Shown one piece after another: positions 13,567 through 35,339 of a stretch of DNA of 39,828 bases. A program made the translations under genes and the position numbers. The notes beneath the pieces were generated by a model. The model was not told where the DNA came from and did no database searches. It worked only from the letters and a program-made list of their open reading frames with translations. The stretch's first letter is position 1. Every line of letters starts with the position of its first letter. The stretch covers positions 1 to 39,828 of the forward strand of contig JALWZT010000289.1 in the NCBI GenBank assembly GCA_027002405.1, read 5' to 3'. The stretch is from Anaerolineae bacterium (lineage in GTDB: Bacteria > Chloroflexota > Anaerolineae > J102).

Positions 13567-13582
13567 ACGAGCGGCCGCTCGT
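13567..13582. other. Perfect 16-bp palindrome upstream of hmgA
   Basis: ACGAGCGGCCGCTCGT is its own reverse complement and lies about 40-55 bases before the hmgA start. It could be an operator, but the sequence around it (GTATCG on one side, GTGGCGTC on the other, minus strand) matches the end of the ~200-bp composite repeat, so it may be only repeat remnant. Confidence 0.4.
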
Positions 13583-13633
13583 CGATACAAATAAAATGGG
13601 TGCGTCCTAAATGAGTTGGCGCCAGCCTCCTAT

Positions 13634-13752: not shown

Positions 13753-13829
13753 TGAGTACAGCCTCAACCGAAATAGGACGCACCCAAATAAAATGAGAAT
13801 GCCGATGACACAGCCGGTGCCGGCGCGCT

Positions 13830-14444: not shown

Positions 14445-14453
14445 CTGCGTCCT

Positions 14454-15704
14454 CTATGTTCGGGACAATGCGGGGAGAATCTGGCCCGAGCATTCGCCAA
14501 AGCCCACCCGGTAGCCATCGCCCTGGCACCAGCCCGTGAGGATCACGGTGTCGCCATCCTGGAGGAAGATACGGGTTTCGCCGTTGGGCAGGGGAATGGG
14601 CCGTTCTCCCTTCCAGGCTAGTTCGAGCATGGAGCCGTACGCGTCGGGCGTGGGGCCGCTGATGGTGCCCGAGGCCAGCAAGTCGCCCGGTTGCAGGTTG
14701 CAGCCGGTGATGGTGTGGTGGGCAAGCTGCTGGGGCATGTTCCAGTAGAGATAGCGGAAATTGGAACGGGCAATGGTTGTGGGTTCGGACATAGAGGTGC
14801 TTTGCAGTTGCACCTCCAGGTGGATGTCAAAGGCCCAATCTTCGTCGATATGCAGGTAGGGCAGGGGAGCGGGGTCTTGTTTCGGGCCGGGGCAACGGAA
14901 GGGTTCCAGGGCAGCCAGGGGCACTACCCAGGGGGAGATGCTGGTGGCCAGGTTTTTGGCCAGGAAGGGGCCCAAAGGCTGGTATTCCCATTTCTGGATG
15001 TCTCGGGCGCTCCAGTCGTTGACCAGGACCAGGCCAAAGATGTGGCTTTGGGCTTCTTCGATGGGGATGGGATGGCCTAGATCGTTGCCTGGGCCGATGA
15101 AAAATCCCATTTCCAATTCAAAATCCATGAGCATGCTGGGCATAAAACGAGGGCGGTCCTCCCCTGGGAGAAGCACTTGTCCCCAGGGGCGGCGTACCGG
15201 GGTGCCGCTGATGACGACGGAGCTGGCCCGGCCATGGTAAGCAATGGGGAGATACAACCAGTTTGGAGGCAGGGTGTTTTCTTTGCCCCGAAACATGATC
15301 CCCACATTGGTGGCGTGCTCTTTGGAAGAGTAGAAGTCGGTGTAGTCGCCGATGCGCGCGGGCACATACATGGTGGCTTGGTTCATGGGCACCAAGGCCC
15401 GGGCCCGCAGGTCGGCGTTGTCGCGCAGGGTGGGGGTCTTTTCATCCAGGAGTTCTTGCAGGCGAGCACGGACTCGCGTCCAGGTCGCGGGGCCTGCGGC
15501 CATAAAGGCATTGAGCGCGGGTTCGTGAAAGAAGGAGGTGTCCAGCAGGCCCGCCTCCTCCAGCACGGCCAGGTCGAGGATCCGGTCGCCAATGGCGACC
15601 CCGCAGCGGGGGCCGCGGCCTGGGGCGCTGAAGACGCCATAGGGGAGGTTTTGGATAGGGAAATGAGACTCGGGCGGAACAGGAATGAAAGATGCTTGCG
15701 TCAC
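14454..15704 (-). CDS. fahA: Fumarylacetoacetase
   Basis: This 416-residue fumarylacetoacetate hydrolase splits fumarylacetoacetate into fumarate and acetoacetate, the last step of homogentisate breakdown. Family motifs are [13 protein letters not shown] at the start, [16 protein letters not shown] (catalytic His/metal region), [26 protein letters not shown] and [19 protein letters not shown]. The initiation codon is taken as GTG at 15702-15704: GGAGG is eight bases upstream and the protein then begins at the conserved point, whereas the longer ATG form adds 21 unrelated residues. LysE follows after nine bases; the conserved protein of unknown function precedes it by 103 bases. Confidence 0.95.
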
Positions 15705-15807
15705 AGAATAAGCCTCCGGATAAAAATGTGGGGAACGAGCCTGCCCAACGATAAAGTCGCGGGGCATCAGGAGTTTATCAGGTTCCCATCTTCAGAGAGG
15801 AACCATG

Positions 15808-18477: not shown

Positions 18478-19245
18478 CTACCGCCCCTGCCATCGAGGGG
18501 GGCGTTTTTCCAAAAAGGCGGTGAGGCCTTCACGCATATCTTCGGTGGCAAAGAGCAGGTAGAAGAGGCGGCGTTCGTCCAAAAGACCCTGGGAAAGGGG
18601 GGTTTCGAAGGCTTGATTGATGGCTTCTTTGATATGGCGCACCGAGAGAGGCGCCCGTTCCGCGATCGCCGCGGCCAGCTTCATGGCTTCTTCCAGATAA
18701 AGCTCCACCGGCACCACGCGGTTGACCAGGTGGTAATCCAGGGCCTCGTATGCCGTGAGGAATCGGCTATTCAGGGCCATCTCCATGGCCACGGCTTTGC
18801 CTACCGCCCGAACCAGGCGCTGGGTGCCCCCGGCCCCGGGCATGATGCCCAGGTTGATCTCGGGCTGACCGAAGCGGGCGGATTCCGACGCGATGATCAT
18901 GTCGCACATCATGGCCAGCTCGTTGCCGCCCCCCAGGCACCAGCCCGATACCGCGGCGATGATGGGGATCTTGATGGCCTGGAAACGCTGCCACAGGCTC
19001 AGACGGTCGCTCAGGATTTGCTTCACCACGTCGCTTTCGGCCAGTTCCTGGATATCCGCGCCCGCGGCAAAGGCTTTTTCATTGCCGGTGAGGACGATGA
19101 CCCGGATGGCCGGATCGGCCTCGAAGGCTTCCGCGGCTTCGACGACGCGACGGATGACGTCGCTGTTCAGCGCGTTGAGGCGTTCGGGCCGGTGGATGCG
19201 AATGAGCCCGACTTTGTCGTGGGTTTCGGTGAGAACAGAAGGCAT
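18478..19245 (-). CDS. Enoyl-CoA hydratase, PaaF-like
   Basis: This 255-residue crotonase keeps both hydratase glutamates: Glu109 in [11 protein letters not shown] and Glu129 in [19 protein letters not shown]. It also has the family end [12 protein letters not shown]. Hydration of a 2-enoyl-CoA is the expected reaction. In the phenylacetate route that would be hydration of 2,3-dehydroadipyl-CoA (PaaF role), but crotonases of fatty-acid or amino-acid oxidation look alike. It starts 25 bases after livF on the same strand and closes the long transport/catabolic gene run. No ribosome-binding site is obvious, so it may depend on coupling with livF. Confidence 0.88.
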
Positions 19246-19270: not shown

Positions 19271-20002
19271 CTAGGCTGCCAGGGCGTGGCCGCCCAGGTA
19301 CGCGGCCTGGACACGAGGGTCTTCCAAAAGTTCGTGGGCGTTACCTTCCAAAACGATGCGGCCTGTTTCGAGAATGTAGGCTCGGTCGGCGAGTTTGAGC
19401 GCGGCCCTGGCGTTTTGTTCTACCAGCAACACGGTCTGGCCCCGATCTCGCAATGAGGCGATCAACTGGAAGAGGTCTCTGACAATGAGTGGGGCCAGGC
19501 CCAGGGAAGGTTCGTCCAGGAGCAGCAGCTTGGGGCGGGCCATGAGCCCACGCCCAATGGCCAACATTTGCTGTTCGCCGCCGCTCAGCGTGCCGGCCAT
19601 TTGTTTTTTGCGCTCCCGCAAGCGGGGAAAAAGGTCGAAGATCTCTTCGATATCTCGTTGGACCGCCTTACGTCCATCCCGACGATAACGCTGGTACGCG
19701 CCCAAAAGCAGGTTGTCGTACACCGAAAGGGTCCCGAAAACCTGACGATGCTCGGGCACATGGCTGATGCCCGCGCGCACAATGGCCGCGGCCCGGGCTT
19801 TGGTGATATCTTGCCCCTGAAAAAGAATACGGCCGGAACGGGCTCGCAGCAGCCCGCTGATGGTATGGAGCAACGTGGTTTTGCCAGCACCGTTGGCACC
19901 TACCAGGGCTACGATCTCGCCCGGGTTGACATGGAGCGTGACCTCTTTCAGGGCCTGGATGTGGCCGTAATAGGTGTTGATGCGATCAATTTGAAGAAGC
20001 AT
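19271..20002 (-). CDS. livF: Branched-chain-type ABC transporter ATPase
   Basis: This 243-residue ATPase subunit of a LivFGHMK-type importer has Walker A GANGAGKT (residues 33-40), signature LSGGEQQMLAIGRGLM and Walker B LLLLDEPSLGLAP, plus the family C-terminus. It hydrolyses ATP at the cytoplasmic face together with LivG. The ATG at 20000-20002 is taken because GGATGG lies upstream; the in-frame ATG three codons earlier has no ribosome-binding site. It lies 36 bases after livG and 25 bases before the paaF-like gene. Confidence 0.95.
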   Translation of the reverse strand: MLLQIDRINTYYGHIQALKEVTLHVNPGEIVALVGANGAGKTTLLHTISGLLRARSGRILFQGQDITKARAAAIVRAGISHVPEHRQVFGTLSVYDNLLLGAYQRYRRDGRKAVQRDIEEIFDLFPRLRERKKQMAGTLSGGEQQMLAIGRGLMARPKLLLLDEPSLGLAPLIVRDLFQLIASLRDRGQTVLLVEQNARAALKLADRAYILETGRIVLEGNAHELLEDPRVQAAYLGGHALAA

Positions 20003-20038
20003 AAAAACCATCCATGGATGAGGAGGATGTGAAAAACA

Positions 20039-20803
20039 TCAATCGACACCCAGATACGCGGTGATCACTCGTTCATCCTGTTGGACTGCTTCGGGAGGTG
20101 CATCGGCAATGACCTCACCGTAATCCAAAACCAGGACCTCATCCGCCACATCCATGACCATCTCCATATCATGTTCCACCAGCACGATGGTCACACCTTC
20201 GTCACGGATCTGGCGGATCAAATCCACCAAGTCCTGGGTTTCGGTCGAGTTCAATCCGGCCGCGGGCTCGTCTAGCAAAAGCAGACGGGGTTGGCTGGCC
20301 AGCGCGCGGGCGATTTCCAGTTTGCGTTGCAAGCCGAAGGGGAGCTCGGTGGCATCATCATAGGCGCGATGGGCGATACCTACCTTGTTCAGCAAAGCCA
20401 TGCCCTGGGCAATGACTTCTTGTTCTTCTCGCCGAGCCCGGGGCAAGCGCAATGCCGCGGCTAAAAAGCCCGTGTGGGTACGTGTATGCGCGCCGACCAG
20501 CACGTTTTCCAAAACGGTCATATGTTGGAAAAGTTTGATGTTTTGGAAGGTGCGCGTGATGCCCAGGGCCGCGATCTCGTTGGGGCGAAGCCCTACCAGG
20601 CTCTGGCCCATAAATCGGATATCCCCCGCGGTGAGTTCATAGATGCCTGTGATCAGATTGAAAAGGGTGGTTTTGCCCGCGCCGTTGGGGCCGATGATGG
20701 CTTTGATCTGGCGCGGCCAGACCTGGCCCGAAACCTGATGTAGGGCTGTGAGGCCGGCAAAGGTTTTGGTGACGTGGTCGAATTCTAAGATGGGAGTGGG
20801 CAT
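20039..20803 (-). CDS. livG: Branched-chain-type ABC transporter ATPase
   Basis: This 254-residue LivG-type ATPase has Walker A GPNGAGKT (residues 38-45), the LivG-specific region ALGITRTFQNIKLF, the atypical signature LPFGLQRKLEIARAL in place of LSGGQ, and Walker B LLLLDEPAAGLN followed by the H-loop VEHDM. These are normal for LivG. It pairs with LivF on the LivHM pore, 23 bases downstream of livM. Confidence 0.95.
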   Translation of the reverse strand: MPTPILEFDHVTKTFAGLTALHQVSGQVWPRQIKAIIGPNGAGKTTLFNLITGIYELTAGDIRFMGQSLVGLRPNEIAALGITRTFQNIKLFQHMTVLENVLVGAHTRTHTGFLAAALRLPRARREEQEVIAQGMALLNKVGIAHRAYDDATELPFGLQRKLEIARALASQPRLLLLDEPAAGLNSTETQDLVDLIRQIRDEGVTIVLVEHDMEMVMDVADEVLVLDYGEVIADAPPEAVQQDERVITAYLGVD

Positions 20804-20826: not shown

Positions 20827-21912
20827 TTAAGAATCGGAAAGGGGTTTGTGTCGAAGGCGATGCAGTGTGTTGCGAACACCAAACACCACACCATCGGGCG
20901 CGAAGATCATGAGCAGGATGAGGATGAGGCCGAAAGCGATGACTTCGTATTCCCCACTGGCCCCTTCTACAACGAGGTGCATGCGGGCCCGCAAAAGTTC
21001 ACGAATCAGAAAGAAGGCAGCCACCCCGAAGGGAGCTCCCCACACGCTGGCCATGCCTCCCATCGCAGCCATGATCACCAGATCCAAAGATGCGACAAAC
21101 CCAAAAGTAGGAGGCGACACCGCGGCCTGAAAATGGGCATAAAGGCTTCCGGCCAGGGATCCCATGATGGCGCTAAGGACGAACACTCGGGTTTTGAATT
21201 CGGCCGTATTTACTCCGATCACCTCCGCCGCGAGATCGCTGCTATGAATGGCCCGCAAGGCCCGTCCTACTCGGGAATTCACGATATTCAAGGAGAGGAT
21301 GATGGAAAGCAACGCCATGGCCCATACCAGAAAGTAGTAACGGGTCACGGGCCAGAGCTCATAAGTGCCGATACGCAGCCGGGGGATCCCCGGAATGCCG
21401 TCCGAGCCCCCTGTTAAACTGAGGACTTTGGCGCTGATACCGAAGTTTTCTCGAAAAAGGATGACCACCACGATGCCCAGCCCCAGGGTGGCCATCGCCA
21501 GATAGTGGCCTTTCAGGCGCAGAATGGGGCGGCCAACCAGATAGGCAAAAAAACCGGTGATGAGCATGCCCGCGGGGATCAAAAGCCAGGGCCACCACCA
21601 ACTATTGGCGATGGTGTCGGGAATGCCCACGACACTGGCCCGGGCCGTGAAGATGGCCGAAAAATACGCGCCCATCCCATAGAACGCGGCTTGTCCCAAA
21701 GACGCCTGGCCTGTATACCCCATAAGCAAATTCAACCCCACCACCACAATGGTGAGAATGCCGATCCGGACCAGGGCATCGAAGGTGAAAATGCCGCCGG
21801 TGAGGCTGGAGAATCCTTCGGGATGGGTGATCTCAAACCAACCGGCAAAGAGAATGAAGCTGGTTAGAGCCAGAAGCCCCCAAAGGTTGCGATGGGATGC
21901 GATAAATTTCAT
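20827..21912 (-). CDS. livM: Branched-chain-type ABC transporter permease
   Basis: This 361-residue permease has about nine to ten hydrophobic segments. It shows the LivM signature GLNLLMGYTGQASLGQAAFYGMGAY near residues 58-82 and the cytoplasmic coupling motif SRVGRALRAIHSSDLAAEVIGVN. It forms half of the membrane pore with LivH. It starts four bases after the livH stop, so the two permeases are translationally coupled and probably made in equal amounts. Confidence 0.95.
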   Translation of the reverse strand: MKFIASHRNLWGLLALTSFILFAGWFEITHPEGFSSLTGGIFTFDALVRIGILTIVVVGLNLLMGYTGQASLGQAAFYGMGAYFSAIFTARASVVGIPDTIANSWWWPWLLIPAGMLITGFFAYLVGRPILRLKGHYLAMATLGLGIVVVILFRENFGISAKVLSLTGGSDGIPGIPRLRIGTYELWPVTRYYFLVWAMALLSIILSLNIVNSRVGRALRAIHSSDLAAEVIGVNTAEFKTRVFVLSAIMGSLAGSLYAHFQAAVSPPTFGFVASLDLVIMAAMGGMASVWGAPFGVAAFFLIRELLRARMHLVVEGASGEYEVIAFGLILILLMIFAPDGVVFGVRNTLHRLRHKPLSDS

Positions 21913-21916: not shown

Positions 21917-22972
21917 TCAGACCTTTTCCGTTTCTTTGGCTTTGGAAAGGATGCCTTGAGGCCGATAAAGCAGGACCAGGATGAGGATGATGAAAGCGAA
22001 AATGTCTTTAAGACCCGACTTGGTCACGCCCGCGGCCACATTTTCCACCACGCCCAGGAGCAACCCGCCAATCACCGCGGCCGGCGCGCTGACCAGCCCC
22101 CCCATAATCGCGGCCACAAAGCCTTTGAGTCCAAGTTTCAACCCCATATCGTAAGTGGGGGAGGTGACAGGAGCCAGGACGATGCCCGCCACCGCGCCCA
22201 CGGCCGCGGCCACCACAAAGGCCAGTAGCGACATTTTGCTGGGGCTGATTCCCATCAGTCGGGCTGCGGTGCGATTGATGGCACTGGCTTGAAACGCTTT
22301 CCCATAGATGGTGAAATTGAAAAACCAATACAAAACGGCCATCACCAACGCCGTGGTCGTCCAGATCCACAAACTTTGACCTTTGATGATCACGCCAAAT
22401 GGTCGGTATACCTTGTCGCGAGTGGCCTCAGTGAAAAAGGTGGAGAATGCAGGCAATTTCAGGGCGCCTGTCCCCCAATAGAGGAGTGCCAATCCCTGAA
22501 TCACGATATAAACCCCCACGGTGATGATGATCAATGTTAAAGGCGAGGCATCCCGCACGGGAGCGATGACCACCCGTTCGATAAACAACCCCACCGCGGT
22601 GGTGAACAAAATGGCAAACACGGCCGCCGCGAAAAGATTGACCGCAGGGGCGAAGGGTAGAAGTTGGTGCGCAAAAAGATCCGCGGTGATCATGGCTCCT
22701 AACATGACAAACGCACCCTGTGCAAAATTGATGACGTTGGTCACGTTGTAGATGGTCACCAGTCCTAAAGCGATCAGGGCATAAATGGCCCCAGCACGGA
22801 GGCCGTCCATGATCAACTGCGCGTATTGCCGAAGGCCAAAATGTTTTTTGCCTCCCAGCCAAAAGATAAGCAGGAGAAGCGCGAGGAGCAACAACACCGA
22901 GAGCCCTTGGCGAAGGCTCATGCTCGGCTTGCGCTTGCGGGTTGCCACGTTCGTGGTGATGGTGGATTCCAT
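21917..22972 (-). CDS. livH: Branched-chain-type ABC transporter permease
   Basis: This 351-residue permease has a basic N-terminus, a first membrane segment at residues 21-38 and about eight further segments. It carries the LivH signature GLRAGAIYALIALGLVTIYNVTNVINFAQGA and the coupling motif FQASAINRTAARLMGISPSKM. ATG 22970-22972 is preferred to the TTG-led longer frame. A 132-base gap with a long hairpin separates it from the stop of the binding-protein gene, which should let livK be made in excess over the membrane parts. Confidence 0.95.
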   Translation of the reverse strand: MESTITTNVATRKRKPSMSLRQGLSVLLLLALLLLIFWLGGKKHFGLRQYAQLIMDGLRAGAIYALIALGLVTIYNVTNVINFAQGAFVMLGAMITADLFAHQLLPFAPAVNLFAAAVFAILFTTAVGLFIERVVIAPVRDASPLTLIIITVGVYIVIQGLALLYWGTGALKLPAFSTFFTEATRDKVYRPFGVIIKGQSLWIWTTTALVMAVLYWFFNFTIYGKAFQASAINRTAARLMGISPSKMSLLAFVVAAAVGAVAGIVLAPVTSPTYDMGLKLGLKGFVAAIMGGLVSAPAAVIGGLLLGVVENVAAGVTKSGLKDIFAFIILILVLLYRPQGILSKAKETEKV

Positions 22973-23011
22973 AGTGGGTTCCGAGATGAAAAGCAATGAC
23001 GGGCCGGTAGG

Positions 23012-23104: not shown

Positions 23105-25594
23105 TTACTGACCCCAGGCATCCTGGGGGAAGAAGGTGAACTGACCATCCTGCACCCGCACCAGCGTCAGGGCCGTGGTATAGTCCTTCACCCCCAAGTG
23201 GTCATCCGGTTCCAGGGTGAAGACGCCACCGGTCCCGGGCCAGTCTTTCACATAGGTTTCCAGGTTGTCCCGGATGGCTGCACGGCGTTCCTGCAGAGAA
23301 AGCCCATCGGGCAGGTGTTCCATGGCGATCCGGAGCCAGGAAAGGCCATCCCACGCGTGCCCGGCGAAGCTATCGGCCCGTTTGCCGGTGTAGGCGTTGT
23401 AGTCAGCCATGAATTGGTGGATAACCTCGTATTGGGGATCCGAAGAGGGCAGTTGGTCCGCCACCAACAGCTTGGGGCATGTAGCGATCGCGCCTTCCAC
23501 CACGCCTGGATCCAAGGTGAGGAAGGCATCGTTGCAGATGCCACCGCTGTGGAGCACAGGAACGTCGGGCATGTAGTCTTGCAGGGCAGCCATCGCGTTC
23601 ACGGCCCCGGGCATGAGGGACCCAATGATCACGGCTTCGCAACCGGAGCTCTGAACCGAGGTCATTTGCGGGAATTCGGTGTCGGAACGTTCGAACGCGT
23701 CGGAGTACACCACTTCGATGCCTGCTTCTTCCATCACTTTTTCGCCATTTCGCAACACGTCCTGGCCGTAGCCAGTGTTTTCATACAGGTAGCAGACTTT
23801 GGTCACCCCCAGGGCTTTGAGGTAATCCTTGTGCCATTGGGCCACCTGCGAGTTGACATGGGGGGTTTTGAAGATCCATTTCCGGGTTTGACCGGTTTCG
23901 GGGTCACGAATGATGACGCCCGCGGACCCCATAGAAACCAGGACCGTCTCATTTTCGGTGGCAATGGGCACCATGGCCAGGGAATTGCCGCTGGTGGAAC
24001 CGCCCAGGACCGCGTCCACCTGTTCTTCGTTGATGAGGCGGTTGATGGCCGCGGCCGCGGTATCGGGGTTGGACTCGCTATCGAGGATGACAACTTCCAC
24101 AGGATGGGTGACGCCATCAGGCCCGGTGATGCCCCCGGCCTCTTCGAGCTGTTTGGCCACCATTTCCGCGGTTTCTCGTTCCTGCACGCCCAGGCTCGAG
24201 GCTCCGCCCGTGGCCGCGACCACGACGCCGATCTTGTAGGGCTGCCCCTGGCCACCACCGGTCGCTTCGCTCGATGCGGGCATGGAACCGCCCCAGGCTT
24301 CCGGAGGATAATACACGAACTTACCTCCTTCCACCTGGACAAAGGTCAAGCCTTTGTAATCCAGGCCCAGGTGATCTTGGGGGGAGAGATTGTAGATGCC
24401 GCCGGTGCCGGGCCAGTTCTTGATTTTCGATTCGATATTGTCGCGCACGCCTGCGCGTCGGGCCTGCAGATCGGAGTTATCGGGGAGGTTCTCCAGGCCG
24501 ATGATGGCCCATTGCAGCGCGTCCCAGGCATGGCCCGCGAAGGTGCTGACACTTTCGCTACCGGTAAAGGCTTTGTAATCCTGGGCGAATTTCTCCAGAA
24601 CCGGCTTCTGGGGGTCGGTATCGGGCAATTGATCCAGCACCACCAGGCGTCCGCAGGGCAGGACGACGCCCTCCACGGTCTCGGGATCGAGATCGATGAA
24701 CTTCTGGTTGCAAACCCCATGGCCGTGCACAATGATGGCATCGGGCACAAAGTCGCGCAGAGCTGCGGTGATGTTGGTGGCACCGGGCGGCAGAGCACCA
24801 ATGACCACCGCTTCGCAGCCCGCGCCCTGCACCGCGCTCATCTGCGGGAATTCGGTATCGGAACGTTCAAACGCATCGGAATAAACGATCTCGATGCCCG
24901 CCTCGGAGAAGGCTTTCTCGCCATTCCTCAGGGTGTCTTGGCCATAGCCGGTGTTTTCATACAGGTAGCACACCTTGGTCACGCCCTGGGCCTTCAGGTA
25001 TTCCGCCTGCCATTTGGCGCTATGGATGTTCTCCTGCGGGGTTTTGAAGATCCATTTGCGGGTCTCGCCTGTTTCGGGGTCCCGGATGATGGACCCGGCC
25101 GCGCCCATGGAGATGAGGACTGTTTTGTTTTCGGTGGCGATGGGCACCATGGCCAGGGAGTTGCCGCTGGTGGTGCCGCCCACGACCACATCGACCTGTT
25201 CTTCGTTGAGCAGACGGTTCAAAGCGGCCGCGGCGGTATCGGGGTTGGATTCGCTATCCAGGATGATCACTTGCACTGGATGCTGGACCCCGTCCGGCCC
25301 CGTGATGCCGCTTTTTTCCACCTGGGCTTTGATCATTTCCGCGGTGTTCTTTTCGGCCTCGCCCAGGCTGGCCGCGCCGCCTGTGGCCGCAACGACCACG
25401 CCGATCTTGTAAGGGGTCCCGGCCTGAGTTTCACCGCCCGCGGCGGGAGGCTGAGTGGCTGGGGCCGGTTGGCTGGTTTCTGGGGCCTGGGTGGGCTTGG
25501 GGGCTGCGGTGGGTTCGGCTTTGCCGCCACCACAGGCGGCCAGCACCAAGACCAGCACCATCACCGCCAACAATACGATAAACCAACGTCGCAT
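23105..25594 (-). CDS. livK: Lipoprotein with two fused LivK-type substrate-binding domains
   Basis: This 829-residue protein starts at ATG 25592-25594, with GGAGGAG upstream. A signal peptide ends in LVLAAC (lipidated Cys21), followed by a Pro/Thr/Ala-rich linker (25-60). Two full periplasmic-binding (type I, Leu/Ile/Val family) domains follow: about 61-435 and about 452-829, each opening with PYKIGVVVAATGG and containing IILDSESNPDTAAAA, SGNSLAMVPIATEN, RKWIFKTP, CYLYENTGYGQD and FERSDTEFPQM. The unit repeats at 391 residues (1173 bases) and the two halves are clearly a recent tandem duplication joined in frame by a Ser/Gly linker. A normal LivK has one domain. It delivers substrate to LivHMGF; given the paa genes upstream, an aromatic acid is likely, but specificity cannot be read. 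Confidence 0.93.
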   Translation of the reverse strand: MRRWFIVLLAVMVLVLVLAACGGGKAEPTAAPKPTQAPETSQPAPATQPPAAGGETQAGTPYKIGVVVAATGGAASLGEAEKNTAEMIKAQVEKSGITGPDGVQHPVQVIILDSESNPDTAAAALNRLLNEEQVDVVVGGTTSGNSLAMVPIATENKTVLISMGAAGSIIRDPETGETRKWIFKTPQENIHSAKWQAEYLKAQGVTKVCYLYENTGYGQDTLRNGEKAFSEAGIEIVYSDAFERSDTEFPQMSAVQGAGCEAVVIGALPPGATNITAALRDFVPDAIIVHGHGVCNQKFIDLDPETVEGVVLPCGRLVVLDQLPDTDPQKPVLEKFAQDYKAFTGSESVSTFAGHAWDALQWAIIGLENLPDNSDLQARRAGVRDNIESKIKNWPGTGGIYNLSPQDHLGLDYKGLTFVQVEGGKFVYYPPEAWGGSMPASSEATGGGQGQPYKIGVVVAATGGASSLGVQERETAEMVAKQLEEAGGITGPDGVTHPVEVVILDSESNPDTAAAAINRLINEEQVDAVLGGSTSGNSLAMVPIATENETVLVSMGSAGVIIRDPETGQTRKWIFKTPHVNSQVAQWHKDYLKALGVTKVCYLYENTGYGQDVLRNGEKVMEEAGIEVVYSDAFERSDTEFPQMTSVQSSGCEAVIIGSLMPGAVNAMAALQDYMPDVPVLHSGGICNDAFLTLDPGVVEGAIATCPKLLVADQLPSSDPQYEVIHQFMADYNAYTGKRADSFAGHAWDGLSWLRIAMEHLPDGLSLQERRAAIRDNLETYVKDWPGTGGVFTLEPDDHLGVKDYTTALTLVRVQDGQFTFFPQDAWGQ

Positions 25595-25634
25595 GAGATG
25601 CTCCTCCTTTTTGGGGGGTGAGATAGAGTAAGGG

Positions 25635-26057
25635 TTAGGATTGGGGAATGAACCAATGTTTTTTGCGATAAACCGTGGCCTGGCATTGCATGATGAGCGC
25701 ACCATCTGGCTGGCGATGGACGGTGATTTCATAAAGGCCAATGGGGCCGTTCAGATCACGTTCCCGACATTCGGCGATCAGCATATCCCCTGCTTGCGCG
25801 GGGCGCATGAAGCTAGAGCTCACTTGCAAGGCGACGGCGGTTTGCCCGCGGGCGTTGGACGCGGCGGCAAAGGCGATGTCGGCCAGGCTGAAAAGCAGCC
25901 CGCCATGCGCGACCTGGTGAAAGTTGAGCATGGCCTCGGTGACATGGAGGCGCACCCGGCTGTATCCGGGCTCGATGGCTTCGATGACAGCCCCGAGCCA
26001 GGACGCGTAAGCATCGGCACGGATATGTTGGGCGATGCGTTGGTCCCGGGATGTCAT
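25635..26057 (-). CDS. paaI: PaaI-type hotdog thioesterase
   Basis: This 140-residue hotdog-fold protein releases CoA from stalled ring-hydroxylated phenylacetyl-CoA intermediates. The motif VAHGGLLFSLADIAFAAASN (residues 49-68, with the catalytic Asp60 in the HGG-D layout) and SSSFMRPAQAGD are typical of PaaI. Its ATG overlaps the paaH TGA by four bases (ATGA), a sign of coupled translation. The TAA stop lies within a GGATTA-like repeat fragment. It is followed 40 bases later by livK. Confidence 0.92.
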   Translation of the reverse strand: MTSRDQRIAQHIRADAYASWLGAVIEAIEPGYSRVRLHVTEAMLNFHQVAHGGLLFSLADIAFAAASNARGQTAVALQVSSSFMRPAQAGDMLIAECRERDLNGPIGLYEITVHRQPDGALIMQCQATVYRKKHWFIPQS

Positions 26058-26926
26058 GATTCGTATGTGTAAAACCCTACGCCCGTTTTTCGGCCCAGGC
26101 GGCCGCTTGCCACCATTTTTTGCTGGATGGGGTGCGGGCGATATCTGGGGTCGTGGAAGTAGGCTTCGTAAACGCTGCGGGTGACCGCAAAGTTGACGTC
26201 CATCCCGATGAGATCGATGAGCTGAAAGGGCCCCATGCGGAAGCCCAGGGATGTCATGAGCCGGTCGATGGTGGGGACATCGGCCTGACCTTCGCCCAAG
26301 ATGCGCAGGGCTTCGCCATAGAAGGGGCGGGCCACCCGGTTCACGATAAAAGCAGGAGTGTCTTTGCACAGAACCGGGGTTTTGCCCAGGCGACGGGCAA
26401 AGGCCGCGCCCGTAGCCTGGGTTTCATCGGAGGTGGCATCCCCGCGAATGACTTCCACCAGGCGCATGATATGGGCGGGGTTGAAAAAGTGTAGCCCCAG
26501 CACCTGGTCAGGGCGGTTTGTGGCCGCGGCCAACGCGGTGATGCTGAGGCTGGAGGTGTTGCTAGCCAGGATGGCGTGAGCGGGCGCGTGCGCGTCCAAC
26601 TGCTGAAAGATGTCTCGCTTCAGGTCGAAGTTTTCGGGCACGGCTTCGATGACCAGGTCCGCGGTCGCGACCGCGGTTTCCAGCCGGGTGGTGAGATGAA
26701 AGGCGGCTTTGGCTTTTTCGGCCTGTTGGGGGTCTGTCTTGCCCAGTTGCACGCCTTTGTCGATGGAAGCATGGATGCGCGCCAGGGCTGCATCCAGAAT
26801 GGCTTCTGCGATATCGTAGAGGAAGACCTGGCAGCCCGCGAGGGCGCCCACTTGCGCGATGCCACGGCCCATGGCACCGGCGCCGATGACCGCGAGGGAT
26901 TGGATGGCGTTCGCGTCCATGGTCAT
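26054..26926 (-). CDS. paaH: 3-hydroxyacyl-CoA dehydrogenase
   Basis: This 290-residue NAD-dependent dehydrogenase has an N-terminal Rossmann motif LAVIGAGAMGRGIAQ (GxGxxG at 15-20), the catalytic His in LGLHFFNPAHIMRLVEVI, and the C-terminal dimerisation domain ending in YRPHPIQQKMVASGRLGRKTG. It oxidises 3-hydroxyadipyl-CoA in the phenylacetate route if it follows PaaH. ATG 26924-26926 overlaps the paaG stop as ATGA; an ATG two codons later (26920) is the alternative. It is flanked by paaG and paaI. Confidence 0.93.
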   Translation of the reverse strand: MTMDANAIQSLAVIGAGAMGRGIAQVGALAGCQVFLYDIAEAILDAALARIHASIDKGVQLGKTDPQQAEKAKAAFHLTTRLETAVATADLVIEAVPENFDLKRDIFQQLDAHAPAHAILASNTSSLSITALAAATNRPDQVLGLHFFNPAHIMRLVEVIRGDATSDETQATGAAFARRLGKTPVLCKDTPAFIVNRVARPFYGEALRILGEGQADVPTIDRLMTSLGFRMGPFQLIDLIGMDVNFAVTRSVYEAYFHDPRYRPHPIQQKMVASGRLGRKTGVGFYTYES

Positions 26927-27708
26927 GATCCTGTGAATTGAGGTGGGCGTTTTTCCAAAAAGGCCTGGACGCCCTCCCGGTAGTCGTGGCTGCGGCCCGC
27001 GATCTCCTGAAGATGGGCTTCGTAGGCCAGGGCATCGTCCAGGGTTTGGGTGAGGGCGCGGTGCATGGCGCGTTTGGTCAACCCAAACGCAAGGCTGGGC
27101 CCCGAGGCCAGGCGCTGGGCCCACGCGTTCACTTCGTCCTGGAACGCATCCGGAGACACGACCGCGTTGACCATGCCCCAGGCCAGGGCCTGGTCCGCGC
27201 GCACCTTTTCCGCGGTGATGGCCATCTGGTAGGCCCGGGCATAGCCGATAAGCCGCGGCAGGAACCAGTTGACACCGCTATCGGGGATGAGCCCCACCCG
27301 GCTGAATGCCAGGATGAAGCTGGCTTTTTCGGACGCGATGCGGAGATCCGCGGCCAGGGCCACGCCCACGCCCGCGCCCGCGGCCACACCATTCACCGCG
27401 GCGATGACCGGTTTTTCCAGGCGCACCATGGCCTGGATCAGCCGATGATAGCCGTGACGCAAATGATCGCCGATGGAGAAATCCCCCTCCCGTGCTTGCA
27501 CATCGGCCAGGTCCTGGCCCGAGCTGAAGCCTCGGCCCGCGCCGGTAATGACCACACAACGGATGTCGCGGTTGCGAGCGGCTTGTTTGAACGCGTGGGT
27601 GGTTTCACGGATCATGGTGTCGTTGAACGCGTTGAGGGTATCGGGCCGGTTGAGGGTGATGGTGGCCACCCCGTCGGTGAGGTCGAAGAGAATGGTTTCG
27701 TAGCTCAT
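26923..27708 (-). CDS. paaG: Ring-epoxide isomerase-type crotonase
   Basis: This 261-residue crotonase has the PaaG hallmark GLIPDSGVNWFLPRL, with Asp143 in place of the second hydratase Glu, and the oxyanion segments GFSSGQDLADV and NGVAAGAGVGVAL. PaaG converts the 1,2-epoxide of phenylacetyl-CoA to the oxepin-CoA. GAGGGAGACC leads to ATG 27706-27708. It follows the EthD-like gene by eight bases and overlaps paaH by four. Confidence 0.93.
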   Translation of the reverse strand: MSYETILFDLTDGVATITLNRPDTLNAFNDTMIRETTHAFKQAARNRDIRCVVITGAGRGFSSGQDLADVQAREGDFSIGDHLRHGYHRLIQAMVRLEKPVIAAVNGVAAGAGVGVALAADLRIASEKASFILAFSRVGLIPDSGVNWFLPRLIGYARAYQMAITAEKVRADQALAWGMVNAVVSPDAFQDEVNAWAQRLASGPSLAFGLTKRAMHRALTQTLDDALAYEAHLQEIAGRSHDYREGVQAFLEKRPPQFTGS

Positions 27709-27716
27709 GGTCTCCC

Positions 27717-28010
27717 TCAATCCTCGGCGCCGAGCAGGATGCTATGAAGATTGGCTCCAAAGCGGCGGGAATCTTTGCCCACCGCGGCCATTTCCGGGGA
27801 ATTCATGCCGGTTTTCATGTCTTCCTTGGTGGCAAACCGCATCTCAAACATCAGGTACAGGTCCTGGCCCGCGAGGGTTTTGTTGAATTTGGTGACGGCA
27901 TATCCGGCCGAACCAGGGACTTTTTCCACCAGTTTCAGGTGTTCGGCATAAGCGGCATCAAAGGCTTCGGGGTCTTCGGGCCGGGTGTAAAGGACGATCA
28001 TTTTGTACAT
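27717..28010 (-). CDS. EthD-family small protein
   Basis: This 97-residue ferredoxin-like alpha+beta protein of the EthD type begins MYKMIVLYTRPEDPEAFDAAY, with EHLKLVEKVPG and SPEMAAVGKDSRRFGAN further on. EthD-family members are small dimeric barrels found in aromatic-degradation clusters, some acting as lyases or oxygenases; the exact activity here cannot be read. GGAG lies seven bases before the ATG. It heads the group that continues with paaG, paaH, paaI and livK, after a 775-base repeat-filled gap. Confidence 0.85.
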   Translation of the reverse strand: MYKMIVLYTRPEDPEAFDAAYAEHLKLVEKVPGSAGYAVTKFNKTLAGQDLYLMFEMRFATKEDMKTGMNSPEMAAVGKDSRRFGANLHSILLGAED

Positions 28011-28785: not shown

Positions 28786-29499
28786 CTAGGGCATTGTGCG
28801 TATGCCCGCGGAGGCCATTCGCATGAGCAGGGGGTGGGGCCGATAGCGGTCTTCATGCCATTCCGCGTACAGGCCGTTCATGATGCCGTAGATGGTATCG
28901 ATGCCCAGGTATTCCCCCCATTCCAGGGGGCCGTGGGGGTAATTAGTGCCCAGTTTCATGGCGGTATCGATGTCTCTGGCCGAAGCGACTCCCTCGGCCA
29001 GGGCGCTCATGGCTTCGTTGACCAAGCAGGCCAGGACCCGGGCCCGCACCAGGCCCGGGCCTTCGCCCACTTCCACGGGCTCCAGGCCAAGGCTTTGCCA
29101 AAAACGAAGGCCCCGCTCAAAGGTGGCGTCGGAGGTCTGTAGACCGCGGGCGACTTCTACCACCTCCCCTTTTTGCAGGGGGGGCATCAGCGAAAATCCC
29201 ATCAGCCGTTCGGGATCACTCATATCATACGCGGCCATGGTGACGCTGGCAGGCAAGGCCGAGGTGAGCATCAGGGTTGTGGGCGCGATCAGGCTTTCTA
29301 GATTCCACAGGGCCATGGATTTGTCCCCGTGGTGGTAGAAGTCGATGACGATTTCTTTGTCGAAGAGAGGAAGATCGCCTGGCAGCACATTCACAAACGC
29401 GTCTGCTTCGAAAAGGTCGACCTGATGGCCGGCTTTTCGACACAGGGATGCGAGGGCATCGCCGAAGGGTGGGTTTCCGAAAATCGCGATGGAGGTCAT
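28786..29499 (-). CDS. 3-hydroxyacyl-CoA dehydrogenase-like protein lacking the catalytic His
   Basis: This 237-residue protein keeps the C-terminal 3-hydroxyacyl-CoA dehydrogenase domain (KLGTNYPHGPLEWGEYLG, EDRYRPHPLLMRMASAG) and a short, degenerate Rossmann N-terminus (TSIAIFGNPPFGDAL). The position normally HFFNP reads GFSLMPPLQKGE, so the catalytic His is absent. It may be a structural or regulatory partner of paaH or a reassigned enzyme. The hexamer repeat begins two bases upstream of its ATG, and no ribosome-binding site can exist there, so translation initiation is odd. It lies downstream of paaD across a repeat copy. Confidence 0.78.
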   Translation of the reverse strand: MTSIAIFGNPPFGDALASLCRKAGHQVDLFEADAFVNVLPGDLPLFDKEIVIDFYHHGDKSMALWNLESLIAPTTLMLTSALPASVTMAAYDMSDPERLMGFSLMPPLQKGEVVEVARGLQTSDATFERGLRFWQSLGLEPVEVGEGPGLVRARVLACLVNEAMSALAEGVASARDIDTAMKLGTNYPHGPLEWGEYLGIDTIYGIMNGLYAEWHEDRYRPHPLLMRMASAGIRTMP

Positions 29500-29502: not shown

Positions 29503-29697
29503 GATCAGGATCAGGATCAGGATTAGGATTAAGGATCGCCAGGCCCACGTTGGACGGGGCGACAGCGGACATGATGCGTGAAAACGTGAAACGTGAGAAC
29601 CTTACGCGTCAAGCATCACGTTTCACGGCTCGCCAACCGGGCCGCGAGGCGTTTTCCTCGGTATCGGCGCGTTGCCGGGCGTGGCGTCTGGTTACAA
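29503..29697 (+). repeat. Copy of the ~200-bp composite repeat
   Basis: It starts with GGATCAGGATCAGGATTAGG, continues through the GTGATGCGT-type stem and CCTTACGCGTCAAG, and ends in GGCCGCGAGGCGTTTTCC and GGTATCGGCG. Its end overlaps the last codons of paaD by a few bases, and its left end lies against the start codon of the 28786-29499 gene. Confidence 0.7.
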
Positions 29698-30186
29698 AGG
29701 CTTGAATTGTTCAAACGCGTCCTGGCAATCGAGACAGTAGTAGATCGCGCGGCACAGGGTGGAACCGAAGGTGTTTTTTACGGTCACGCGGGAGGAGCCA
29801 CAACGGGGGCATGTCACCTGAGGTTGCAGGATGATGGTCTGATCGCCCTGATGAACGGGGGGTGGGGCCAGGCCAAAGGCTCGGAGTTTTTCCCGGCCTT
29901 CGGGGCTGATGTCGTCGCTGGTCCAGGGAGGATTCAGGACCATCTCCACGTCTACCGAGGCCGCGCCCAGGTCCTGGAGTTTTTGTTCCACCAGGGCACG
30001 CATCACGTGCAAGGCCGGGCATCCGGAAAAGGTGGGGGTCATCACCACCCGCACGTGAGCACCATCGGTTTCCACCGCGCGCACCACCCCCAGGTCGACC
30101 AGGGAAACCACGGGGATCTCCGGGTCCATGACCTGGCGCAGGGCCTGCCATATGGCGTCTTCGGTAAGTTGCTCGGAAGTAGACAT
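29692..30186 (-). CDS. paaD: Phenylacetyl-CoA epoxidase assembly protein PaaD
   Basis: This 164-residue protein pairs a DUF59/MIP18-type domain (VMDPEIPVVSLVDLGVVR, TPTFSGCPALHVM) with a C-terminal zinc ribbon (CPRCGS and CLDC). PaaD helps load metal clusters of the epoxidase. Its ATG is 32 bases after the paaC stop. The rest of the paaABCD order is intact, but the paaE reductase is absent after it. Confidence 0.92.
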   Translation of the reverse strand: MSTSEQLTEDAIWQALRQVMDPEIPVVSLVDLGVVRAVETDGAHVRVVMTPTFSGCPALHVMRALVEQKLQDLGAASVDVEMVLNPPWTSDDISPEGREKLRAFGLAPPPVHQGDQTIILQPQVTCPRCGSSRVTVKNTFGSTLCRAIYYCLDCQDAFEQFKPL

Positions 30187-30218
30187 CGCAAATGATCCAG
30201 AGAAACAGTCAGAGAGGG

Positions 30219-30971
30219 TTACCACACGGCCTTGGGGATGCTGCGGGCGACAAGTTGCATATCGGCCAGCAAGTCCACCAGGTGTTCTGTGTGATGGTGA
30301 CGGTGGGCGTAGATGGGTTCCGCGTCCGGAGGGGTGAGGTCCGCGTTTTTGAGATGAGGGAGCACCACATCCTGCCACGCGGTTTGGAGCTGGTCCGGAT
30401 CGGGGAAGAAGCCCGCTTCTACCAGATGGGCATCCAGAGGCATAGGGCGGAAGAGTTGCAACGCGTAGGGCCAGAGGTGATCCAGGGCCCGTTGCATCCG
30501 GGCATGACTTTCTTCCGTGCCCAGGCCCAAGCGTTCCACCCAAATGCTGCTATGGCGAAAGTGGTAGATCTCCTCCCGTCGTATTTTTTCCGCGGCTTCG
30601 GCCAAAGGCGCGTACTGACTGGTCATCAGTCGCGTCAGCAAAGCCATTTCGTAGGCATCGAAGAGGTACTGGCGCAACATGGTGAAAGCCCAATCGCCAT
30701 TCGGAAGCTCCACCATTTGCACGTTGCGAAATTGTCGGGCATCCCGGAAGAAGGCCATGCTGTCCGCGTCGTTGCCGGTGTAAGGTTCAGCCAGCTCGTA
30801 CCAGATGAGGGCATGGCCGAGTTCGTCCTGAGCGATGTTGGCGATGGCGATGTCTTCCTCCAGGATGGGCGCGTGGCCGGTCCATTCAGAATCTCGATGC
30901 CCGAGAATGACTTCGTCATCCGCCATCGCGACCAGTCGATCCATGAGGGCTTGCTGCAATTGTTCGTTCAT
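30219..30971 (-). CDS. paaC: Phenylacetyl-CoA epoxidase structural subunit PaaC
   Basis: This 250-residue ferritin-like subunit partners PaaA in the diiron epoxidase. It has the helical pattern EDIAIANIAQDELGHALIW and REEIYHFRHSSIW, with residues of a former di-iron site. The ATG overlaps the paaB TGA by four bases (ATGA), so translation is coupled. The gene follows paaB and precedes paaD. Confidence 0.94.
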   Translation of the reverse strand: MNEQLQQALMDRLVAMADDEVILGHRDSEWTGHAPILEEDIAIANIAQDELGHALIWYELAEPYTGNDADSMAFFRDARQFRNVQMVELPNGDWAFTMLRQYLFDAYEMALLTRLMTSQYAPLAEAAEKIRREEIYHFRHSSIWVERLGLGTEESHARMQRALDHLWPYALQLFRPMPLDAHLVEAGFFPDPDQLQTAWQDVVLPHLKNADLTPPDAEPIYAHRHHHTEHLVDLLADMQLVARSIPKAVW

Positions 30972-31537
30972 GATAGGCGAATATCCTCCGGTCGGCGTTG
31001 AGAACGGCGGGCGAAGACGCTGCCTGTGTAGTAGCTTTGGTCTCGATAGGTTTTGTCTTCGGCGGGTTCGAACATGCTGGGGACATCCTCTTCGTTGCTG
31101 CGGGTGATGGCGCTTTCGGGCACAACCCACCACATGTAAGCGATTTTTTCGACAAATTGGCCGCTATCGATGGCTTTGCGCAGGGCTTCGCGCGAGGAAC
31201 GGGCCTGGATGTTTCCCACATGGGTCACCGCAACCATGGACCGGCGCTGGGTTTGTTTGTTGAAGATGTGGTAGGTTTCTTCCGGGGCTTCTTCAGGCAG
31301 GTCCTCCTTCCACCAATTGGGGGTGGTTTCGAGCTCGTAAGCGGTCATTTTGAATACCGCGCTTTCTGGCGCCACCCACAAGCTGTAGCAGGAAGGTCGG
31401 CGCACATACACATCTCTGGCATTGAGCAAAGCCACGTCGGCATCCGGGGCATGAACCGTGCCCACGGCTTCATGAGGTCGATCGGGCCGATCTTGCTTGA
31501 AGACCTCCCAGCGAGGCCATTGGGTATCTCGGGTCAC
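30968..31537 (-). CDS. paaB: Double-length PaaB subunit
   Basis: This 189-residue protein is about twice the usual PaaB length (about 95 residues). The first half (residues 9-75) reads [20 protein letters not shown]...[19 protein letters not shown]; the second (87-175) reads [21 protein letters not shown]...[11 protein letters not shown]. Both show the PaaB pattern: W/Y-x-V/I-F start, a variable core and a W-V-x-P end. It is an internal duplication or fusion of two PaaB domains, which would alter subunit stoichiometry in the epoxidase. It overlaps paaC by four bases and begins 33 bases after the paaA stop. Confidence 0.9.
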
Positions 31538-31570: not shown

Positions 31571-32521
31571 TCAATTCATGCTGGCCTGGCGCTGGCGTTG
31601 GGCATAGGCTTCCAAGGCCTCGCGTACCCATGCGCCTTCTTCGTGGGCGCGGCGACGAGCTTCGAGCCGGTCTCGGTTCATGGGCCCGTTGCCGCGGATA
31701 ACCCGCCAAAATTCATCCCAATCAATGGGGCCAATCACCCAATTGCCGGTTTCCTCATCGTAATGCAGATCGGGATCAGGGATCTTCAGCCCCAGGGCCA
31801 GGAATTCGGGCACGATTTCGTTGATGAATTCCTGACGCAGTTGGTCGTTGGTCTTGATCTTGACTTTCCAACGCATGAGGGTTTTGGTATGGATGGATTG
31901 GGAATCGGGCGGGCCGAACATCATCAGCGCGGGCCACCACCACCGATCCAGGGCGTCCTGGGCCATCTGGCGTTGTTCGGGCGTGCCTTTGGCATAGATG
32001 GTGATCATCTCTTTGCCCTGCTTGTAGTGGAAGGTTTCTTCCGCACAGATGCGCACCATGGCCCGGGAGTAAGGGCCGTAGGAAGAATGGGCCAGCATGG
32101 TTTGGTTTTTGATGGCGGCACCGTCTACCAGCCATCCGATCATGCCGATGTCGGCCCAGGTTAGGGTGGGGTAATTGAAGATGTTGGAGTATTTGGCTTT
32201 GCCTGCGAGCAGGGCCGCAATGAGTTCTTCCCGATCGACGCCCAAAGACTCGGCCGCGTGGTAAAGATATTGGCCATGCCCCCCTTCGTCCTGGACCTTC
32301 GCGATGAGGATCATCTTGCGGCGGAGGGTGGGGGCGTGAGGGATCCAGGCGCCTTCAGGGAGCATGCCCACGACCTCGCTGTGGGCGTGCTGGGAGATCA
32401 TGCGGATGAGTTGGCGACGGTATTCGTCGGGCATCCAGTCGCCGGGTTCGATTTTCTCGCCTCGCTGGATGCGGGCTTCGAACTCGGCCAGTTTCTCTTC
32501 GTAGGTTTTTTCTTCAGACAT
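31571..32521 (-). CDS. paaA: Phenylacetyl-CoA epoxidase catalytic subunit PaaA
   Basis: This 316-residue diiron monooxygenase converts phenylacetyl-CoA to its ring-1,2-epoxide. Iron-ligand motifs are [20 protein letters not shown] and [17 protein letters not shown]-terminal DIDWDE-type helices also match the family. AAGGATT lies before the ATG; an upstream GGAGAG also fits. It heads paaABCD and follows the thiolase across 66 bases without an obvious promoter. Confidence 0.95.
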
Positions 32522-32587: not shown

Positions 32588-33838
32588 TCACGTATCCGAT
32601 ACCCATTCAAGCACTGCGGCCACGCCCTGTCCTACGCCCACGCACATGGTTACAAGCCCATACGGGGAGGTGGCGATGCCTTGCGCGTGGCGTCGTTTCA
32701 TTTCGTGAAGCAGGGTGGTGGTGAGACGGGCGCCTGTGCATCCCAGGGGATGGCCCAGGGCGATGGCGCCGCCATTCACATTGGTGCGGTCATGAGGAAA
32801 GCCTAATTCATCCATCACGGCCAGGGCTTGCACCGCGAAAGCTTCGTTGAGTTCGATGATGTCCATGTCGGCCACGGTGAGCCCCGCCCGGGCCAGGGCC
32901 TTGCGGGTGGCGGGAATGGGGCCTAATCCCATTGTACGGGGATTGACGCCCGCTGCAGCGACGCTGATTACTTTTGCCATGGGTTTCATGCCCAATGCTC
33001 GTGCTTTTTCTTCGGACATGAGCAGCAGGGCGGCTGCGCCATCATTGATGCCCGAAGAATTGCCCGCGGTCACAGTGCCTCCTTTTCGAAACGCGGGTTT
33101 GAGCCGGGATAAAAGGGCCATGTTCGTGGTGAGTTCCCAACGCCCGTTCACTTTTTTCATGCGGGGATGTTCGTCGGTATCCACGAGGATGGGATCGCCT
33201 TTGCGCTGGGGAACAGGGACGGGAATGATCTCGTCTTTGAACTTCCCCGCGTTGATGGCCGCTACAGCCCGACGTTGGCTTTCCAACGCGAAGGTGTCCT
33301 GGCGTTGTCGGGAGATCCCGGTCATTTCATAGATGTTTTCTGCGGTTTCTCCCATGCTTTCCAGGGGGAACATGGCGGCCATTTTGGGGTTTGGGAATCG
33401 CCAACCAATGGTGGTGTCGTACATTTCGGCCTTGCGGTCGTAGGCTCGCTCAGCTTTGGCCACGACAAAGGGGGCCCGGGACATGCTTTCGACGCCCCCC
33501 GCGAGGTACACGTCCCCTTCGTCCAAACGAATGGCCCGATAAGCATGGATGATGGCATCCAGTCCCGAAGCGCAGAGCCGGTTCACCGTGATGCCCGCGA
33601 CTTCTTGGGGCAAGTCGGCCAAAAGCAAGGCCATGCGAGCCACATCCCGGTTATCTTCGCCCGCCTGGTTGGTGCATCCCAATACCACTTCTTCTATCAG
33701 GGTGGGGTCAATGCCTGTGCGGTCGACTAGTGCGCGGATAACCAAAGCAGCCATGTCGTCGGGACGTACTTTGGCAAGCACGCCTCCGAAACGGCCGACC
33801 GGAGTGCGTACGGCGTCGATGATGACAGCGTTTTTCAT
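32588..33838 (-). CDS. Acetyl-CoA acyltransferase (PaaJ/PcaF-type thiolase)
   Basis: This 416-residue thiolase has nucleophile Cys89 in [11 protein letters not shown], His in [16 protein letters not shown] and a second Cys in TMCVGVGQG. It matches the 3-oxoadipyl-CoA thiolases that finish phenylacetate degradation, releasing acetyl-CoA and succinyl-CoA (PaaJ/PcaF role). Ordinary 3-ketoacyl thiolases look similar, so the exact name is left open. ATG 33836-33838 is used and no ribosome-binding site is clear. It follows paaK by 13 bases. Confidence 0.9.
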
Positions 33839-33851
33839 GAGGGAATCAGGG

Positions 33852-35195
33852 TTATTGGAGTGTACGGTTATCGATAACACGACGGAGTTTGCCGCCCTGA
33901 CTGCGAGGGGCCTCGCCAGGTCCCAGAAGCTTAACCCGGGTGTTCAACCCCAAGGTCTCCCAAAGGCGGGCTTTGACTTGTTCCTCCAGTTCCTGGATTT
34001 CCACGACAGCCTCCATAGCATGGCCGGCAAAGAGTTCATCTCCGATTTCGCGGAAGAAGTCTTCGGTCACTTCCACCTGCACTTCCATAACATCCAGATG
34101 GTTTTCGCGAGAAAGCACGATGCAGTAGTGGGGTGCGATGTGCTCGATGTTGAGCAATGCGGATTCCACCTGGGAGGGGAAGACGTTGACACCCCGGACG
34201 ATGAGCATGTCGTCCGCGCGGCCCAGGACGCGACTCATGCGGGCATGGGTGCGGCCACATTTGCATTTTTCGTACGTGATGGAGCACAGGTCCCCGGTGC
34301 GGTAGCGGATCAGAGGCAGGGCTTCTTTGGTCAGGGTGGTGAAGACCAGCTCGCCCACCTGACCTTCGGGCAGGGGGTCACCGGTTTTGGGATCAATGAT
34401 CTCGGGCAGGAAGTGATCCTCCATGATGTGCATGCCATCTTTGGCCTCTACGCATTCGTTGGAAACGCCGGGCCCGATGATCTCGCTAAGGCCGTAGATG
34501 TTCACCGCGTCGACGTGGAGTTTGGCTTCCAGTTCCCGGCGCATTTCTTCGGTCCAGGGTTCCGCACCCAGGATAAAGACCCGAACCCGCAGGTCTTTGG
34601 GGTTCACGCCTTCCTCCAGCAGACGGTCGGCCAGGGTGAGGGCATAGGAAGGGGTGCAGGCCATGACGTCGGGCTGGAAGTCCTGAAGGATCATCATCTG
34701 TCGCGCGGTGTTGCCTCCCGAAACAGGAATGACCGAGACGCCCATGTATTCTGCGCCGTAGTGCATGCCCAAGCCTCCGGTGAAAAGCCCATATCCGTAA
34801 GCATTTTGGAACATATCACCGGGTTTGGCGCCACTGAGGGCCAGGGAACGGGCACAGACTTCGGCCCAGACCTGCAGATCGTTGCGGGTGTATCCCACCA
34901 CTGTGGGTTTGCCTGTGGTGCCGGAGGATGCATGGATGCGGATGAGTTCCTCGCGGGGCACGGCAAAGAGCCCGAAGGGGTAGTTATCCCGCAGATCGGT
35001 CTTTTTGGTAAAGGGAAGTTTGGTCAAATCTTGAATGCCGCGAATGTCGTCGGGCTTGATGCCTGCTTCATCGAATTTTTCTTTATAGAAAGGCACCCGG
35101 TCATAGACGTAGGCCACGACTTTGCGCAGGCGTTCGCTTTGCAGGGCCTCGAGTTCCTCCCGAGGCATGGTTTCGATCTTTTCGTTCCAGAACAT
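33852..35195 (-). CDS. paaK: Phenylacetate-CoA ligase
   Basis: This 447-residue AMP-forming ligase activates phenylacetate with ATP and CoA. The P-loop-like [11 protein letters not shown] (residues 88-98), the PaaK-type ANL-fold middle motif [11 protein letters not shown] and LIRYRTGDL are seen, with the C-terminal domain ending in [18 protein letters not shown] lies nine bases before ATG 35193-35195; the longer ATG-led frame is unsupported. It opens the paaK-thiolase-paaABCD run. A tandem CACTAAGG block lies upstream (about 35275-35310). Confidence 0.95.
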
Positions 35196-35339
35196 AGGCG
35201 GCTCCTGATGGAGAAGGGAGATAGAGGATTTAGGCGTGTCACTATACACGTACCCTCTCATAGCAAGGCAAAAACCACTAAGGCCACTAAGGACACTAAG
35301 GCACAAAGGGAAAAATAAAAAGTTACTTAGGCGTTTGGG

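Follow-up and report, generated by a model that had tools for sequence, protein, structure and literature searches.

Among ABC importers, tandem binding domains have, to our knowledge, been described chiefly for proteins of the GlnPQ type, in which they form one chain with the membrane subunit. GlnPQ of Lactococcus lactis carries two tandem binding domains that differ in specificity (PMC8025302). The closest described proteins in fold and family to the one presented here are CouP (RPA1789) and the other aromatic-acid binders of Rhodopseudomonas palustris (4jb0/4jb2, 3tx6/4f8j, 3ukj/4eyq and 4dqd/3sg0), which are LivK-type proteins and its nearest PDB sequences. In CouP, ferulate is contacted by Leu46, Glu50, Ser100, Thr102, Leu122, Arg197, Ser222, Gln305, Phe306 and His309 (PMC3610893). 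No description of tandem LivK-type lipoproteins was found in the open-access literature searched, and the same literature held nothing relevant beyond GlnPQ on conversion within tandem binding proteins. The window considered here (the whole stretch of DNA analysed, 39,828 nucleotides) is a phenylacetate (paa) cluster, and a gene for such a tandem lipoprotein lies in it upstream of livHMGF, with all four partners, LivH, LivM, LivG and LivF, encoded alongside. Two intact binding domains share one lipid anchor and one LivHMGF set, the fusion is conserved, and its halves have diverged independently. The favoured reading, given a probability of roughly 0.6, is that of an aryl-carboxylate importer with two diverged sites on one anchor, in which the C-half has specialised and the pair has largely escaped conversion.

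The lipoprotein gene is laid out as follows.

25601..25610, minus strand: strong Shine-Dalgarno sequence AAAGGAGGAG, read directly from the sequence, with an ATG start behind it
23105..25594, minus strand: tandem two-site substrate-binding lipoprotein of 829 aa, a single ORF with two PF13458 domains and orthologues in G009 and G005
25532..25594, minus strand: lipoprotein signal peptide with lipobox LAAC and Cys21, from the sequence
25415..25531, minus strand: disordered Pro/Thr/Ala-rich tether, residues 22-60 (AF2 pLDDT <50 at 16-56)
24284..25414, minus strand: N-terminal binding domain, residues 61-437, a PF13458 match, closest to the ancestral single-domain form
24242..24283, minus strand: Gly/Ser-rich linker between the domains, residues 438-451 (AF2 pLDDT <50 at 439-448)
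23108..24241, minus strand: C-terminal binding domain, residues 452-829, a PF13458 match with a derived pocket (Gly684, Ser742)

The earlier note had described two full binding domains fused on one lipoprotein with a repeat of 391 residues, and this description holds, with exact coordinates, an uninterrupted ORF and two PF13458 domains. The 829-aa protein scores 283 bits against the curated PF13458 cut-off of 31.7, in two stretches (24323-25414 and 23150-24241, minus strand), and its repeat is spaced by 1173-1176 nt in the DNA. At the lipobox, A20 and C21 are invariant among the 11 tandem proteins compared. The AF2 model (mean pLDDT 85.8, pTM 0.53) contains two complete two-lobed domains, whose relative placement is not fixed because the pTM is low. 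LivH is encoded by a separate ORF, and the binding lipoprotein carries only its N-terminal lipoprotein signal and no fusion to a transmembrane subunit. The genes around it are the following.

21917..22996, minus strand: LivH-type permease (PF02653; best NCBIfam match LivH)
20827..21912, minus strand: LivM-type permease (PF02653; best NCBIfam match LivM)
20039..20803, minus strand: LivG-type ATPase (profile match)
19271..20011, minus strand: LivF-type ATPase (profile match)
18478..19245, minus strand: PaaF-like enoyl-CoA hydratase (NCBIfam)
25635..26057, minus strand: PaaI-like thioesterase, directly upstream of the lipoprotein gene (TIGR02286, 111 bits against a cut-off of 118.9)
26054..27124, minus strand: PaaH-like 3-hydroxyacyl-CoA dehydrogenase (ORF bounds; true start near 26.9 kb)
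26923..27720, minus strand: PaaG-like isomerase (TIGR02280, 308 bits against a cut-off of 345)
28786..29499, minus strand: second PaaH-like protein, divergent in its N-terminal part (profile match)
29692..30543, minus strand: PaaD (ORF, domain from near residue 138; TIGR02159 over cut-off)
30219..31133, minus strand: PaaC (ORF, domain from near residue 70; TIGR02158 over cut-off)
30968..31537, minus strand: PaaB, apparently two PaaB-like units (TIGR02157, two stretches, 82.6 bits against 85.45)
31571..32521, minus strand: PaaA (TIGR02156, 517 bits, over cut-off)
32588..33880, minus strand: PaaJ/PcaF-like thiolase (profile match)
33852..35306, minus strand: PaaK-like phenylacetate-CoA ligase (TIGR02155, 606 bits against a cut-off of 646)

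The NCBIfam cut-offs are exceeded by PaaA, PaaC and PaaD, and the matches for PaaK, PaaJ, PaaG, PaaH, PaaF, PaaI and PaaB lie below theirs. The 90-position PaaB model matches the PaaB ORF (189 aa) in two places, which makes this subunit of the phenylacetyl-CoA epoxidase look internally duplicated too. Near the paa cluster, the region 10607-15767 (minus strand) encodes a fumarylacetoacetase and an FAD monooxygenase (PRK08132), both over cut-off, as well as a weak homogentisate-dioxygenase-like protein, which make up a second aromatic route within the same window. A regulator of 1014 aa with BTAD, AAA_16 and TPR repeats (36345-39389, minus strand) adjoins the cluster and is possibly a paa activator.

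The complete fusion occurs in a second species of the same genus (G009; 89%) and in a second genus (G005; 86%). Its surroundings in G005 retain the paa genes and livHMGF, and the short contig of G009 retains paaI and paaH. Its publicly named relatives are Anaerolineae/Chloroflexota metagenome assemblies. Neither a frame break nor an absence of the fusion from related genomes, either of which the earlier note would have taken against it, was found. In the domain tree, the N-halves of the three genomes group in one clade and the C-halves in another, which implies one duplication older than the divergence of the genomes carrying the fusion; the sister of the two clades is a single-domain protein (L069, 64% identical), with a support of 0.85 for its placement and of 1.0 for the group of N- and C-halves. 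The two halves of the window gene are clear paralogues, but the earlier claim that they are near-identical does not hold, since they share 66% of protein residues, 69% of nucleotides and 51% of third codon positions, with synonymous sites saturated (dS about 1.2; 1.19). AAGSIIRD versus SAGVIIRD, offered as an example of a difference between halves, arose in this genome alone, since the N-halves of both orthologues read SAGVIIRD. Across the three fusion genomes (G000, G009 and G005), 66 positions hold one residue in all N-halves and another in all C-halves, and at these sites the single-domain L069 outgroup is N-like in 40 cases, C-like in 8 and neither in 18. Pocket differences are among those fixed in all three genomes, with His292 of the N-half facing Gly684 of the C-half, and Thr351 facing Ser742. 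Purifying selection acts on each half (dN/dS about 0.03-0.08), more strongly on the C-half, and amino-acid identity between genomes is 92-93% for C-halves vs 87-90% for N-halves. These L069 site counts and this selection pattern make the N-half look ancestral, and the C-half derived yet constrained. Such constraint is what one would expect if the second site served a role of its own. Many of these 66 differences between halves may be neutral or lie on the protein surface.

The earlier note's premise that standard systems have one domain applies to the well-studied ones; in Chloroflexota, however, tandem forms are frequent. Nine proteins exceed the PF13458 cut-off in this genome and four of them are tandem, namely the window gene, C281, C347 and C217. 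The C281 halves are 99.9% identical in DNA over 1178 nt (L016 531-3101, plus strand); because C281-type proteins are single-domain in four relatives, this duplication is either very recent or an assembly problem. Those of C347 are 98.8% identical over 1146 nt. C217 (L018 7176-9863, minus strand) is a hetero-tandem, with an N-half of the C347 type and a C-half from another PF13458 subfamily, which occurs as a single-domain protein in G003 and G018; the resemblance of its linker to the C347 linker suggests that the second domain was replaced. Tandem genes were found in 10 of the 20 family genomes searched, two of these cut by a contig end. A three-domain protein (G164 contig C108, L200 27-3782, minus strand) has domains that are 86-94% identical in amino acids, and further tandems appear in the class and phylum samples, including those of a Chloroflexus-like group in which some genomes consist of a single contig (G402, 5.26 Mb). 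The class and phylum surveys scored about three candidates per genome, so that their counts are lower bounds. All fused genes among the best 79 public loci are from Chloroflexota, and in several other phyla these loci have a pair of neighbouring, unfused genes. Unfused pairs of neighbouring LivK-type genes stand ahead of one LivHMGF in Betaproteobacteria and an unassigned proteobacterium (L077, L080, L082, L083). Some draft contigs start inside tandem-type genes (L215 1-1547 in G010 C391, L154 in G013 C146, and L155 in G011 C75), as would follow if short-read assembly tends to break at halves that are almost the same.

Exchange between halves was assessed by comparing two species and two halves at a time, sites being classed as P (a difference between halves that both species share), S (a difference between species that both halves share) or X (a crossed pattern, used as homoplasy control). 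In the window gene, three pairs gave P 135-140, S 22-34 and X 19-21; since P dominates and S is close to X, the halves evolve nearly independently. G000 vs G009 (P 140, S 23, X 19) gives no homogenisation. G000 vs G005 has a clustered excess of S (34 vs 21 for X, p 0.001), a weak sign of some ancient exchange. A conversion origin for the conserved blocks of this gene is unsupported, S being near X in two of the three pairs. The c118 group (P 100, S 19, X 24) resembles the window gene. Other families give other patterns. G017c4 vs G006c22 has P 34, S 97 and X 4, with the sites clustering in blocks (permutation p 0.0005), and most pairs of the Chloroflexus-like group have clustered S of 59-189 vs X of 3-15, three closely related pairs being dominated by P instead. 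In both mapped families, a central run of S sites (about alignment columns 51-270) has P blocks on either side; conversion between halves is indicated because P and S blocks lie within one gene, a pattern that independent re-duplication leaves unexplained. In the C347 group, G000 vs G015 gives S 168, P 0 and X 0, and the linker and start of the second domain (PPEDPLGVVKIGP) are common to both species; with P absent within the domain, re-duplication would be a possible alternative there. The site patterns indicate that several tandem families, including some in single-contig genomes, have been homogenised by conversion. The odds appear about even that Chloroflexota repeatedly build free-standing two- or three-domain LivK-type lipoproteins by internal duplication, that conversion across the mid-domain homogenises many of them, and that the architecture alternates between two states, one with several copies for the same ligand and one of dual specificity, the latter being reached once conversion ceases, as it has in the window gene. 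To judge from these patterns, the recurrence of tandem lipoproteins homogenised by conversion is more surprising than the window gene.

In the mechanism proposed for the window gene, the lipoprotein would be the substrate-binding subunit of an aryl-carboxylate ABC importer, most likely for phenylacetate and close relatives. Its two flexibly linked domains, on one lipid anchor, would load aryl acids and dock alternately on the single LivHMGF. The N-half, with its ancestral sequence retained, would probably keep the ancestral ligand too, and the C-half, with its fixed derived pocket, would probably prefer a different or differently substituted aromatic acid, escape from conversion allowing the second site to specialise. 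The strongest competitor, itself unlikely, is that both halves bind the same ligand and that the tandem brings no more than twice the number of receptors on each anchor and twice the rate of capture close to the pore. The many other tandem proteins of the phylum with halves 85-100% identical favour equal function there, and many pocket residues are common to both window halves; however, the 66% identity, the saturated dS and the 66 fixed half-specific residues argue against it for this gene, as do the pocket differences fixed in every fusion genome. Together with the near absence of homogenisation, the same evidence favours divergence of the sites, one part of the diverged specificity that the earlier note had considered; the ligands, the other part, are predicted. 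Altogether, its observation is partly confirmed and its interpretation partly supported.

For an importer with two diverged sites, an aryl carboxylate is the likely ligand of both halves. The nearest solved structures of each half, by sequence and by fold, are R. palustris aromatic-acid binders, the closest being 4dqd with phenylpyruvate (E 2.5e-31), 3sg0, 4f8j with p-coumarate and 4eyq with caffeate. When the pocket is mapped by sequence alignment, at about 25-27% identity, Leu46, Glu50, Arg197, Phe306 and His309 of CouP are retained in both halves, Thr102 becomes Ser, Leu122 becomes Met and Ser222 becomes Leu in both. Ser100 corresponds to Thr141 in the N-half and Ser533 in the C-half, and Gln305 to Thr351 and Ser742, respectively. 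Glu226 of the Leu-binding protein (reference letters checked against 1usg), which we take to be the residue binding the ammonium group of the ligand, is replaced by His292 in the N-half and Gly684 in the C-half; CouP, 4dqd and almost every single-domain relative also have His here. PaaK-family ligases adjoin one- or two-domain binding proteins with LivHMGF at L067, L068, L069, L071, L074, L076, L078, L081 and L087 and in G006 and G017; these comprise the tandem and single-domain Chloroflexota relatives that were examined, and L078 from Rokubacteria. An aromatic-acid substrate is probable because of the paa cluster, the nearest folds, the retained pocket residues and the absence of Glu226. A hydroxylated aryl acid might, speculatively, be a second ligand, since the fumarylacetoacetase and the FAD monooxygenase share the window. 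It is improbable that the locus encodes an ordinary branched-chain amino-acid importer whose binding protein was duplicated and which lies in the paa cluster by chance. The family name (LivK/PF13458) and the LivHMGF partners would fit such an importer, but Glu226 is missing, the lipoprotein scores 99.8 bits against the cut-off of 477 for PRK15404 (the branched-chain LivK of NCBIfam), aromatic-acid binders are the closest structures, and the linkage to PaaK-type ligases is kept across many genomes. The branched-chain substrate implied by the earlier note was rejected as the leading view on the same grounds and on the paa cluster.

Two further explanations can be dealt with briefly. A C-half devoid of transport function, acting as spacer, docking module or sensor, would be consistent with the loss, at the Glu226 position, of a His that almost all relatives have, but is very improbable for the more conserved of the two halves, which retains the pocket Arg, Ser, Phe, His, Glu and Leu. 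An assembly artefact, conceivable in a draft genome of 363 contigs whose other tandem genes have nearly identical halves, has a negligible probability and was rejected for the window gene because the fusion is kept in assemblies of a second species and a second genus, 31% of nucleotides differ between its halves, and single-contig genomes carry tandem genes of another family.

If the aryl-carboxylate importer with two diverged sites is correct, the likely substrate of the operon shifts from amino acids to aromatic acids, which would aid the annotation of aromatic degradation in uncultured Chloroflexota. The tandem set offers natural replicates of domain duplication, from identical to fully diverged halves, with single-domain outgroups. 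Such replicates make it testable whether two equal sites bring a gain, and at what point conversion ceases and leaves a second site free to change its ligand.

Compared with known systems, the window protein shares its domain family and LivHMGF partners with LivK/LivJ (PF13458, HAAT family), and differs in having two domains instead of one, in lacking Glu226 and in its probably aromatic substrate. In Dechloromonas agitata (L082), Rhodocyclaceae (L083) and others, two related binding proteins are encoded ahead of one LivHMGF, as separate genes and not as one polypeptide. Likeness to CouP lies, as far as the alignment maps them, in most of the ferulate-contacting residues, with Ser222 and Gln305 replaced in both halves, and in being encoded with catabolic genes for the substrate, which is predicted here; however, CouP is a single-domain protein, whereas two domains share one lipid anchor in the window protein, and its neighbours are paa genes, not coumarate genes. 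GlnPQ belongs to structural sub-cluster F-IV of the substrate-binding proteins and has its domains fused to the membrane subunit, whereas the window protein is a separate lipoprotein of the LivK type. With two binding domains per chain serving one translocator, GlnPQ is its nearest functional analogue.
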